Shown in pieces: positions 4,708 to 9,254 of a stretch of 64,000 bases of DNA; positions within the stretch are counted from its first letter, which is position 1, and each line of letters starts with the position of its first letter. The DNA is from Flavipsychrobacter sp. GTDB taxonomy: Bacteria > Bacteroidota > Bacteroidia > Chitinophagales > Chitinophagaceae. A model generated the notes under the pieces. It was given only the letters and a program-made list of their open reading frames with translations. It made no database searches and had not been told where the DNA came from. The translations under genes were made by a program, and so were the position numbers. The DNA lies in assembly GCA_031292525.1 (NCBI GenBank), contig JARLGY010000045.1:248001-312000 (forward strand), written 5' to 3'.

Positions 4708-5442
4708 CTACCGTAAGTTTAACTTCTCAAGCAGTTCTGCCTTGCTATGTTTAGAGAGTGGTATTTTATTGCCACCTACTATTACATACTCTGTATTGAT
4801 GGTATCAATGTGCTGCAGGTTTATTACATAGCTGCGATGTACCCTGAAAAACATTTTGTCGCTGAAATTAGAAATATAGTGCTGTAATGCAGCCCTTACT
4901 AAAATCTTTCTGCTCGCGGTATGCACATTCACATAAACATGCTCACTTTCCAGGTACAGTATGTCTTTGAATAGTATTTTATGGATATAGTTACCCTCCT
5001 TAATAAATACAGCGTCTTGTACCACATAGTTCCCCTCAACCTGCAGTTGATTGCTAGACTGTTGTTTACTAAAATTGTGCAGGCATATTTCTATCGAAGT
5101 ATATAGCTCTTCTTTATTAAATGGTTTTACCAGGTAACCAGGTGGTTCTGTTTCCTTGGCCCTTGCCACTGTAGCAGCATCTGAGTTGGCAGAAAGGAAT
5201 ATGAACGGGATATTGAATTGTTGCTTAATAACGTGTGCCAGGTCTATACCGTCTTTACTACCTCCCAAAGTAATGTCTATCAATATCAGGTCTGGTTTTT
5301 CTTCAGCAACCATTACCAATGCTTCCGAATAAGTAAAGGCGGGTTCTGTAACTGTATAACCAAGTTGCTGCAGCGCATTGCTAATGCCTTCGGCAATGAT
5401 CATTTCATCTTCTACTATTCCTATTTTTATAGGTTGCCCCAT
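4708..5442 (-). CDS. LytTR-family response regulator
   Basis: A 244-residue cytoplasmic regulator. The receiver domain (1-120) has the acidic pair in IGIVEDE, the phospho-acceptor Asp in LILIDITLGG (about 56) and the Lys in YLVKPFN. The C-terminal LytTR DNA-binding domain (about 145-244) includes FRVHRSYVINLQHID and PLSKHSKAELLEKL. LytTR domains bind pairs of direct repeats spaced by two helical turns. The gene lies 128 bases downstream of a TPR histidine kinase on the same strand, its likely partner. A matching repeat pair occurs upstream of that kinase at 7549-7583. Confidence 0.92.
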   Translation of the reverse strand: MGQPIKIGIVEDEMIIAEGISNALQQLGYTVTEPAFTYSEALVMVAEEKPDLILIDITLGGSKDGIDLAHVIKQQFNIPFIFLSANSDAATVARAKETEPPGYLVKPFNKEELYTSIEICLHNFSKQQSSNQLQVEGNYVVQDAVFIKEGNYIHKILFKDILYLESEHVYVNVHTASRKILVRAALQHYISNFSDKMFFRVHRSYVINLQHIDTINTEYVIVGGNKIPLSKHSKAELLEKLNLR

Positions 5443-5570: not shown

Positions 5571-7466
5571 TTATAACACCTTTTTACGCTCGTAAACGTC
5601 TTTAAAAAAAATATTAAATATACTTCCATTATCATACTTGTACTCAGTATATCCTCCTAATTGTTTAGATAAACGTGATATCAGCTTCATACCTAATGAT
5701 GAAAAAGACTTAAGATTCTGATGAACCGGTAAGCCAGGACCATTATCTCTTACCTGTAACAGGAAGTATGTTTCGTCCCTGCTTAACATCATCCTTAATA
5801 TTCCTTTCTCTCCTTGTCTGAATGCATATTTAAACGCATTTGTCAACAACTCATTTATGATCAGACCTAACGGTATAGCAGTATCAATATCCAGTATTAT
5901 TTCAGGCACATCAAATTGTACATCAAGGTCTTGGCCAGGATAAGTAAACACCATAGCTACCTGGCTATACAGATCTTCTAAAAAACTATGGAGTTCTATT
6001 TTGGTTATATCTTCGTTCTGGTAGAGTTTTTGGTGTATAAGCCCTATCGATTTCACCCTGCCCTGCCCCACTGCTATGGCTGCTTTTGCTACCTTGTCAT
6101 CAAGCGCATGCCCTTGCAGTTCCAATAGGTTACTGATCACCTGCAGGTTATTCTTCACCCTGTGGTGTATTTCCTTCATCAATACCTCTTTTTGCTGCAG
6201 CGATGCTTCAAGGTTCTGCATCAATCCATCAGATTTTATTTTTTCCTTACCCAGCAGGTTGTTTATCTTTCTCTGTGCTCTATTACTTTTGAGTACTAAA
6301 CCTATAATTAAAATAAGTACAACTATGCCTGCGAGATAAAAACCACGTTCATTACGTTTTTTTGCTACAGCCAATTGAGCAAGCTGTATATCCTTCTCCT
6401 TAATATCCAAAACCTGTTTATTTTCCAGTTCTTTTATCTTCTGGTTATTCTCATTGGAAAAAACGGAGTCCTTAACATCAATATATTTCCTGTAGCTCTT
6501 TAGTGCACTTTTATAGTTACCATCTGCCTGGTAAGCTTCTGAAAGGCTGAGCATGAATGCCATGGTTGCATCCCTATAACTTATTTCCCTACTCGCATTA
6601 ATACCCTTATTAAGGTATGCGATCCCTTTTTCTAACCTTGCCGATCTATTAACAGGTATTAAAGAATCGGGCAATGTTGTATGTGCGGTATCTGTTACAA
6701 TACGTACATACAACTCTCCAATATTACCAAGGTTGCGGGCTGTGCCATATTTATCCCCTATTTCTTCATATATTTTCAATGCTCTGAAATCATAATCAAG
6801 TGCCTTACTATATTGTTTCTTTTCATCATAAATATTCCCTATGTTGCCCAGGTTTTTTGCAATATTTTTTTTATCATTTAGCGCCTCACTCATAGCTAAT
6901 GCTTTACTGCTATACTCTAGCGCCTTACCTTGATTTCCTAAAGCCCAATAAACATCACCTATATTCCCCAGGTTGTTAGCTATCTTTATTTTGTAACCCA
7001 TCTCCTCGCACAATTTTAACGACTTCAGCTGGTACTCCAGAGCCTTATTAAAATTCCGTTGCAGGCGGTAGGTAATACCTATGTTTTCAAGAGCTGTTTC
7101 CTCATCATCTTTATTATGGATATCTCTACTCTTTTTCAATGTAATAAACTCATACTCTAGTGACTTAGGGTAGTTTGAAAATGCCATATAATTAATCGCC
7201 ATATTGCTATATGCCCTTTCTACACCCTGTTCCCAGCCAAGCTGATTTGCTAATTCTAATTGTTTATTTGCATATTTTAAACCTTCTTCCGGGTTTATAG
7301 TATAATATGTAAAAGATAACCTTGCCAGCAATTTAACTTTATTGGTATCAACTTTGGCTTTCGGCAGTTCTTGTAGCAAAGAATCAATACGTGCTTGCCC
7401 AACCTTCTGTGCCCATAGCAAAGCGGGGCCTAAAATAAGAAGCGATATGAATATTAGTTTTTTCAA
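5571..7466 (-). CDS. TPR sensor histidine kinase, HisKA_2 type
   Basis: About 631 residues if it starts at the TTG at 7466. A signal peptide or anchor (LKKLIFISLLILG) is followed by a periplasmic array of TPRs with repeated LGNIG motifs. A coiled coil and a membrane helix come next (about 374-390, FYLAGIVVLILIIG). The HisKA_2 H-box is KEIHHRVKNNLQ near 434, then the HATPase_c N-box NELLTNAFKYAF and G-box DNGPGLP. It probably phosphorylates the LytTR regulator downstream. The same frame is open back to 7529, but a -7 box (7506-7513) sits inside that extension and the extension would push the signal peptide inward, so the TTG start is preferred. Confidence 0.88.
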   Translation of the reverse strand: MKKLIFISLLILGPALLWAQKVGQARIDSLLQELPKAKVDTNKVKLLARLSFTYYTINPEEGLKYANKQLELANQLGWEQGVERAYSNMAINYMAFSNYPKSLEYEFITLKKSRDIHNKDDEETALENIGITYRLQRNFNKALEYQLKSLKLCEEMGYKIKIANNLGNIGDVYWALGNQGKALEYSSKALAMSEALNDKKNIAKNLGNIGNIYDEKKQYSKALDYDFRALKIYEEIGDKYGTARNLGNIGELYVRIVTDTAHTTLPDSLIPVNRSARLEKGIAYLNKGINASREISYRDATMAFMLSLSEAYQADGNYKSALKSYRKYIDVKDSVFSNENNQKIKELENKQVLDIKEKDIQLAQLAVAKKRNERGFYLAGIVVLILIIGLVLKSNRAQRKINNLLGKEKIKSDGLMQNLEASLQQKEVLMKEIHHRVKNNLQVISNLLELQGHALDDKVAKAAIAVGQGRVKSIGLIHQKLYQNEDITKIELHSFLEDLYSQVAMVFTYPGQDLDVQFDVPEIILDIDTAIPLGLIINELLTNAFKYAFRQGEKGILRMMLSRDETYFLLQVRDNGPGLPVHQNLKSFSSLGMKLISRLSKQLGGYTEYKYDNGSIFNIFFKDVYERKKVL

Positions 7467-7505
7467 AAGTATATAATTAGTATATTTTTTACTTGCAATA
7501 ACGAT

Positions 7506-7513
7506 CAAATATA
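7506..7513 (-). promoter_or_regulatory. -7 box of the TPR kinase (TATATTTG)
   Basis: Exact TAnnTTTG match on the minus strand, 39 bases before the proposed TTG start at 7466. It lies inside the longest possible frame of the kinase gene and so supports the shorter protein. Confidence 0.5.
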
Positions 7514-7548: not shown

Positions 7549-7583
7549 CATTTCAGAACATTATACGGTCATTTCAGAACATT
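7549..7583. promoter_or_regulatory. Direct repeat, 21-bp period, candidate LytTR site
   Basis: CATTTCAGAACATT occurs at 7549-7562 and again, identical, at 7570-7583. The 21 bp period is two helical turns, the geometry known for LytTR-domain binding sites. It lies between the kinase/LytTR genes and the divergent small gene, so it could control both. Confidence 0.5.
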
Positions 7584-7651
7584 TGAAGAATATTTAAACA
7601 TAAGATGTGTATTCTTGTAATACTTATCTACCACTACCAAATAAAACTGCC

Positions 7652-7921
7652 ATGAGCTTAAAGTACAAACTAAACGGGGAAAGGGCAAGCAGAGAAGACC
7701 TCACATATACTGTAGGAATAGCAGACCTCATAACAAGGTGGGAAAACGCAGTCCGAAAATTTGCAGCCGACATAGATCGGGAAAAGGTAAGCATCATACT
7801 ACACTTGGTAAATGGCGAATTAAAAATAATTACCGATACCCGCATGTTGATGAAGCTTTATTGTGAAGTATACAAAAACATGTTTCAAAGCAGCACATTA
7901 AAACAAGCCGTAAGAACATAA
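7652..7921 (+). CDS. Small conserved-looking hypothetical protein
   Basis: An 89-residue cytoplasmic protein starting MSLKYKLNGE, mixed alpha/beta and without Cys. I do not recognise a family. The frame extends to a GTG at 7607, but the ATG at 7652 gives a better N-terminus. It is divergent from the TPR kinase/LytTR genes and shares their upstream region with the 21-bp-period repeat, so it may be a target of that system (inference). It ends 24 bases before a strong bidirectional hairpin. Confidence 0.65.
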   Translation: MSLKYKLNGERASREDLTYTVGIADLITRWENAVRKFAADIDREKVSIILHLVNGELKIITDTRMLMKLYCEVYKNMFQSSTLKQAVRT

Positions 7922-7994: not shown

Positions 7995-9254
7995 TTATTT
8001 TCCTGCCATATATTTTTTTGCTTCTATGCTTAGCGTAGCATGTGGCACTGCACGTAAACGTGCTTTATCTATCAGCTTACCTGTTACACGGCAAATACCA
8101 TAGGTTTTGTTCTCTATACGTATCATCGCTTTTTCCAGGTGATTAATGAACTGTATCTGGCGGCTCGCAAGCTGGGCAAGTTGTTCACGCTCCATAGCGC
8201 CACTGCCATCTTCCATATTCATATAGCGATTTTCAGTATCTTCCGTACCGGCTTCATCCTTACGGGTTATAAGACCTTGGAGGTACATCAGCTCTTTGCG
8301 GGCACTTTCCAGCCTGCTCGTTATAAGTTCCCTGAATTCAGTCAGTTCCTCATCACTGTACCTATAAACGGGGCCTTGCTGCTGTACTGGTTCGTCAAGT
8401 ATAGAACGGTTAAAGTCAGGCTGATAGTTGATCATGGTACGGCTTTCATTATTGCCGGCACTTTTACTTTCCACGCGACGATGTGCTACTATTATATTAG
8501 GTTTCTTCTCTTCACGCATCATTCTCGATGTTGCTGAAGCAGGAATAGGCGCGGGGGCCGGACGACCAGTAACAGATGTAGTTATTGTTTTTATGGGCGC
8601 TTTTACTATCTTCTTACCAGATGCAGTACGCGCAGCCGGTTTTGATTTCTTAGGATCAGGTGGTGGAGGCGGTGGTGTTAGCGTTTTTTTGGCAACAGGT
8701 GCAGCAGCTTTTACAGGTTCTGCTGCCTTCACTGGAACCGCTTTTTTTACAGGCTCAGCCTTAGGTGCAGGTGCAGCGGCTTTGGGGGCCGGTTTAGGAG
8801 CCGCAACTACTTTTTTTACTACTTTGGTTTCTGCCACTTTTTTTGCAGGCGCAGCTTTGCTGGCCGGAGCGGCTTTTTTTGCAGGTGTTTTAGATGTTGT
8901 CGTATTCTTCACCGGAGATGGATTTTTTTTTGCTTGTTTGGAAACAGGCTTAGGCTGTGCCTTTTTAACGGCCACGGCTTTTACCTCTATTTTTGCTTTT
9001 GCACCTTTTTTTGCAGGTGCTGCTTTTGAACTTCCCTTTGCTACTGCAATTGCCTTTTTAGCTGGGGCCGCTTTTTTTATACTCTTAATCGCTATTGCTT
9101 TCTTGGCAGGAGCAACTTTTTTAGCTGGTACCGAAGCCTTTTTAGCTGGGGCAGCTACTACTTTCTTGGCAGGGGCAGTTGCTTTTTTAGTTGCAGGTGC
9201 TGTAGGTTTTACACTTTTTACTGCCTTAGCAGCCACTTTCTTTTTAGTAGCCAT
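7995..9254 (-). CDS. DksA/TraR-like protein with histone-H1-like Lys-Ala-Pro tail
   Basis: A 419-residue fusion. Residues 1 to about 250 are a low-complexity basic region of AKK, APAKK and KAAP units, like histone H1 tails. From about 298 to the end it is a DksA/TraR domain: YSDEELTEFRELITSRLESA coiled coil, an acidic tip (NMEDGSGAMERE), then TYGICRVTGKLIDKARLRAV. DksA proteins enter the RNA polymerase secondary channel and tune initiation. The four zinc Cys are reduced to one (C in GIC), so zinc is probably not bound. It lies 13 bases downstream of ileS and is very likely cotranscribed with it. A basic tail could bind DNA (inference). Confidence 0.85.
   Translation of the reverse strand: MATKKKVAAKAVKSVKPTAPATKKATAPAKKVVAAPAKKASVPAKKVAPAKKAIAIKSIKKAAPAKKAIAVAKGSSKAAPAKKGAKAKIEVKAVAVKKAQPKPVSKQAKKNPSPVKNTTTSKTPAKKAAPASKAAPAKKVAETKVVKKVVAAPKPAPKAAAPAPKAEPVKKAVPVKAAEPVKAAAPVAKKTLTPPPPPPDPKKSKPAARTASGKKIVKAPIKTITTSVTGRPAPAPIPASATSRMMREEKKPNIIVAHRRVESKSAGNNESRTMINYQPDFNRSILDEPVQQQGPVYRYSDEELTEFRELITSRLESARKELMYLQGLITRKDEAGTEDTENRYMNMEDGSGAMEREQLAQLASRQIQFINHLEKAMIRIENKTYGICRVTGKLIDKARLRAVPHATLSIEAKKYMAGK

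Follow-up and report, generated by a model that had tools for sequence, protein, structure and literature searches.

Genes and direct repeat at the locus

The window, by which we mean the whole 64,000-nucleotide stretch of Flavipsychrobacter DNA analysed, contains a sensor kinase gene and a LytTR response regulator gene on one strand and, divergent from them, a gene for an 89-residue protein (Table 1). A receiver Asp together with a LytTR domain, and a histidine kinase gene adjoining, are the features of a two-component LytTR response regulator. The pair does not belong to the LytTR Regulatory Systems, which combine a LytTR protein with a membrane inhibitor; here the regulator carries a receiver domain and is paired with a TPR/HisKA_2/HATPase kinase. 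A 1-base length difference in the same-genus genome around 7480-7500 makes it probable that the listed kinase start, 7529, is too far upstream. The TTG codon at 7464-7466, followed by the signal-peptide-like KKLIFISLLILGPALLWA, is a better fit and leaves about 80 bp on the kinase side.

Table 1. Coordinates of genes, predicted operator half-sites and putative promoter elements in the window
Feature	Coordinates	Strand	Remarks
Response regulator, predicted binder of the repeat	4708..5442	-	Pfam Response_reg and LytTR; receiver Asp56
Codon of His168, loop ESEHVYV, candidate specificity residue	4939..4941	-	
Sensor kinase (TPR, HisKA_2, HATPase), LytTR partner	5571..7466	-	TTG 7464-7466 preferred over ATG 7529
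Possible kinase-operon -7 element, TATATTTG	7506..7513	-	Distance from the repeat is not the conserved one
Half-site 1 core, TTCAGAACA	7552..7560	+	Repeat unit 7549-7562; predicted -70 to -62; kept in G001 and distant orthologues
Half-site 2 core, TTCAGAACA	7573..7581	+	Repeat unit 7570-7583; predicted -49 to -41
Predicted -7 element, TATTCTTG	7610..7617	+	5/6 consensus positions of TAnnTTTG; 28 bp after second core
Gene of 89-residue protein, predicted target	7652..7921	+	Genus-level family

An earlier note on this DNA had described a direct repeat between the divergent kinase gene and the 89-codon ORF, and both the repeat and its location were confirmed: CATTTCAGAACATT occurs at 7549-7562 and again at 7570-7583, 21 bp from start to start, with 0 mismatches. 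This pair is the only case in the whole window of exact direct repeats of at least 12 bases lying 15-30 bp apart, and a 14-base run at distances of 20-22 was absent from all 60 first-order shuffles of the window. The 4.44-Mb genome was scanned by pattern searches. No second copy of the full CATTTCAGAACATT pair was found in it with up to 3 mismatches, and the core pair TTCAGAACA-N12-TTCAGAACA is perfect at just two places. The second of these two places is 5' to a 79-residue gene. Matches to the core pair with 3 mismatches were at chance level in this genome and were discarded.

The portion of the repeat that is conserved across genera is 9 bases per unit (7552-7560 and 7573-7581) rather than 14, and 21 is the only spacing that is enriched. 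The resulting 9-12-9 arrangement agrees with the layout of LytTR operators, in which direct half-sites of about 9-11 bp are separated by a gap of 11-13 bp.

Conservation of the motif and its association with LytTR regulators

In a genome of the same genus (G001), both copies of the repeat are letter-for-letter identical and the flanking bases have changed. On the earlier note's reading, relatives that keep the gene pair should also keep the repeat. This can be checked in the sister species alone, because searches of the other genomes did not find the 89-residue gene, and in that species repeat and gene pair are both present. LytTR orthologues with 44-49% identity, which were fetched by protein alone, also have this core, with unchanged spacing, next to their genes; in G035, for example, where the LytTR is 46% identical, CATTCAGAACATT occurs twice, 21 bp apart, immediately 3' of the LytTR gene. 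In a set of 80 loci retrieved solely by LytTR protein, the motif at spacing 21 was found in 8 instances, and the reversed motif and six shuffled motifs gave 0 matches in the same 80 loci. When 398 genomes of the order were searched with up to 2 mismatches allowed, there were 41 matches, including members of two tandem arrays, versus 3 for the reversed pattern.

The LytTRs adjoining the motif have His in a loop of the form S/A-D/E/A-H-V/I-Y. The motif was found within 3 kb of 24 of the 28 LytTR domains with His, versus 5 of the 89 with other residues (Fisher p 3.5e-16, a value that ignores relatedness and includes loci that had been fetched by motif). As expected for a LytTR operator, a regulator of the matching type is at hand: a Pfam LytTR domain is encoded next door, and among the 16 LytTRs of the genome this regulator alone has the H-V-Y loop. 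In one other (L203), His occupies this alignment column but the loop, LEHELV, is different. Proximity alone is no proof of the binding regulator, since no LytTR is encoded within 9 kb of some perfect sites in other genomes.

Tandem arrays with a period of 21 bp, made of TTCAAAACAT- or TTCAGAACATC-like units, were also seen in other genomes (G379:C128:6652-6872, G697:C95:1767-1922 and G088:C238:70888-71024); these are perhaps multi-site operators.

Predicted promoter and proposed activation of the 89-residue gene

The -7 element of Bacteroidota promoters is TAnnTTTG, with its first T at -12 (PMC6847099). The distance from the second core to this element was analyzed for 78 collected non-array sites, which comprise both G and C types and a few near-copies. 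Exact TAnnTTTG was found 14 times at 28 bp and 5 times at 38-39 bp; with one mismatch allowed there were 25 at 28, 6 at 29 and 17 at 38-39, and 0-4 at all other offsets. The two peaks, 28 and 38-39, are one helical turn apart. In the window, TATTCTTG, which has one mismatch to the consensus, is located at offset 28, so that the repeat has the position of a LytTR operator, immediately upstream of a predicted core promoter. The predicted transcription start, near 7622, precedes the ATG of the 89-residue gene by about 30 bp. The other perfect site in the genome (G000:C13:4183-4212, L082, minus strand) also has TATTCTTG at 28, 5' to the 79-residue gene, for which there was no Pfam match, and this site is likely to be a second member of the regulon.

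Comparison of sequences brings out the site itself and shows that it is conserved, that it goes with LytTRs sharing the loop and that it keeps a fixed distance from the -7 element. We consider it very probable that the adjacent LytTR response regulator uses the repeat as its operator to activate the 89-residue gene. That gene is the presumed target because the -7 element is at the conserved distance and on the same strand, and its activation is supported by the occurrence of a -7 element 28 bp after the core both in the window and at the second site of this genome. Activation is favoured over repression because the site ends at -41, upstream of the promoter. In the proposed mechanism, the TPR/HisKA_2 kinase would phosphorylate the regulator at Asp56; two LytTR domains would then occupy the two TTCAGAACA half-sites, which, at a distance of two helical turns, lie on the same face of the DNA immediately upstream of the promoter; and the bound LytTRs would aid RNA polymerase at the -7 element (7610-7617), giving a transcript of the 89-residue gene from near 7622.

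Alternative interpretations

The earlier note had proposed that the system controls both the 89-residue gene and itself. The first part is supported by the -7 element, which is on the strand of the 89-residue gene and at the conserved distance. Self-control is unsupported, as there is just one site, which is oriented away from the kinase gene. An autoregulated LytTR operon would be expected to have direct repeats facing its own promoter; here the one site is directed towards the divergent gene. We regard as unlikely the alternative that a LytTR at the repeat represses the 89-residue gene or drives both divergent promoters, including that of its own operon. It could draw on TATATTTG, found on the kinase strand at 7506-7513, on two relatives (L097 and L098) in which a site faces the kinase operon, and on the fact that LytTR regulatory systems are usually autoregulated (PMC6193735). 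However, the motif is directional, with the fixed promoter distance on its forward side, and the relatives that serve both directions do so with two sites, L097 and L098 each having a separate second site for the divergent gene. A site that ends at -41, upstream of the promoter, also fits activation better than repression.

The identity of the binding protein might also be questioned, as the genome encodes 16 LytTR domains and L203 shares the His, so that the repeat could be read by another LytTR or by an unrelated regulator. We find this quite improbable: H-V-Y occurs solely in the adjacent LytTR, and the motif lies beside H-V-Y LytTRs in many genomes. The orthologue sites and the sole H-V-Y loop of the genome likewise favour the earlier note's proposal that the adjacent LytTR reads the repeat. 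Short repeats in two copies are common, and arrays of similar words with a 21-bp period are present in G379, G697 and G088, as would be expected were the repeat a chance or purely repetitive element without function; that interpretation is effectively refuted by the shuffles, the conservation, the LytTR linkage and the promoter distance. Operator function for the adjacent regulator remains the preferred reading.

A possible recognition code in LytTR domains

A search for period-21 repeats that made no use of the motif identified TTCACAACA beside Asn-type regulators, and within the sets L102-L181 and L294-L320 the Asn-type LytTRs are those paired with TTCACAACA. When base 5 was left open in a scan of the 80 protein-fetched loci, His was accompanied by 10 GG and 1 TG, Asn by 30 CC and Gly by 1 TT; nothing was found for residues other than these three. 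A second sample, drawn from the family of the window regulator, had His with GG at 4 loci and Asn with CC at 3, with 0 crossing; the proteins of L102 and L106 recur among these seven, leaving five that are new. Pooled per locus, His had 12 GG, 1 TG and 6 with none, Asn had 25 CC and 11 with none, and among 55 loci with other residues 54 had none and one had TT. Control versions of the scan gave 0-2 hits for ten other spacings and 0-5 for nine altered cores, versus 53 hits. In 38 loci, His was found beside TTCAGAACA and Asn beside TTCACAACA, with 0 crossings. Perfect pairs in 395 genomes of the class were mostly G/G or C/C; A/A pairs came mainly from one tandem array, and of five mixed perfect pairs none was G/C.

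A weak spot in this pattern is that two perfect C/C pairs of the wider sample lie up to 2 kb from a LytTR with Lys rather than Asn at this position; they are served by another regulator, or else the His/Asn rule is not strict. For the Asn-type LytTR of the Flavipsychrobacter genome itself (G000:C3, L044/L197), the only pair found has 3 mismatches and is 8 kb away, and matches in this genome are at chance level. In G044 (L033, Asn-type, 50% identical), the only CC pair found has 2 mismatches and is 5.5 kb away. At single loci, Gly (L116, L150) occurs with the T-type sequences TTCATACCA and TTCGTATCA, and Arg (L167) with TTCGGACA; with few loci, these pairings are a hint.

When the loop was left out of the tree, there were at least two independent switches, one in the Asn clade forming the sister group of the window regulator and the other in the Asn clade of Flavobacteriaceae, both matched by G/C. 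The corresponding tree-corrected test had two independent pairs, both as predicted, which is too few for significance.

From these comparisons, the His/Asn with G/C pairing is strong as a correlation, and a causal role of the residue is a hypothesis. It may be that in Bacteroidota a single LytTR loop residue sets base 5 of TTCAxAACA, His giving G and Asn giving C, with regulators and sites switched together, a proposal on which our judgement is evenly balanced. In the window, His168 would then presumably read the G of each half-site. Such a pairing reduces the DNA choice of LytTR to one residue change plus one base change and, if true, would amount to a simple code of DNA recognition in a domain that has been said to lack a common consensus sequence. 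Of the results presented here, the specificity correlation is the one that merits specialist attention.

Comparison with known LytTR systems

In all likelihood, the repeat represents a LytTR operator of a known kind with a new sequence. In E. coli, the yhjX operator of the YpdA/YpdB system consists of GGCATTTCAT twice (PMC4847170). As proposed here, a LytTR response regulator acts there through two direct half-sites 21 bp apart to activate a neighbouring-type target, but the half-site sequence is another one and the kinase is of a different type. A resemblance to the CATTTCA of YpdB was set aside: what is conserved in Bacteroidota is the core TTCAGAACA and not these shared letters. AgrA, of the same domain family, recognizes DNA with His169, Asn201 and Arg233 (PMC4064291, PMC10482373). 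In an alignment, the His168 loop of the window regulator falls on the His169 loop of AgrA, and the position of the Asn is likewise conserved; however, identity is low, the window loop is two residues shorter and the half-site is different. His168 is a candidate equivalent of His169, in an alignment that is uncertain by 2-3 residues. The HdrRM and BrsRM systems of Streptococcus mutans have 9-12-9 direct repeats just upstream of the promoter (PMC6193735), the same arrangement and promoter-proximal position as here, but they have a membrane inhibitor protein and autoregulate, whereas in the window a kinase is paired with a receiver-containing regulator and no site is directed at their operon.

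A literature search, which covered papers outside subscription, returned no paper on the motif in Bacteroidota and no description of the code; likewise, no description of a binding site for this class of Bacteroidota kinase/LytTR systems was found in the open literature. For that large class, the present analysis offers a specific operator with its promoter geometry, as well as predicted targets.

The 89-residue protein and predicted targets in relatives

The 89-residue ORF appears to be a real gene, because its differences from the same-genus copy are distributed 7/8/25 by codon position. It is confined to the genus among 149 genomes searched. The protein had no Pfam match and no signal peptide by eye; its structure model has a mean pLDDT of 85, and no PDB match to the model was found at E below 0.001. 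Two distant paralogues are encoded in the same genome (G000:C60:44191-44439 and G000:C61:299437-299676; L324 and L325), with 34% and 26% identity, and the repeat was not found upstream of either.

In relatives, large secreted proteins are often encoded next to the motif. When six C-termini were scanned for a type IX secretion sorting domain, 5 of the 6 scored above the cut-off and the remaining one had a sub-threshold match; the motif-adjacent gene in G035 is lipoprotein-like. With the operator and promoter geometry described here, the regulons of Bacteroidota kinase/LytTR systems would become predictable from sequence, and the targets in relatives would include type IX secretion cargo.

The window also encodes, at 7995-9254, a DksA/TraR-type zinc-finger protein (Pfam zf-dskA_traR) with a long Ala/Lys/Pro-rich, histone-like N-terminal part.
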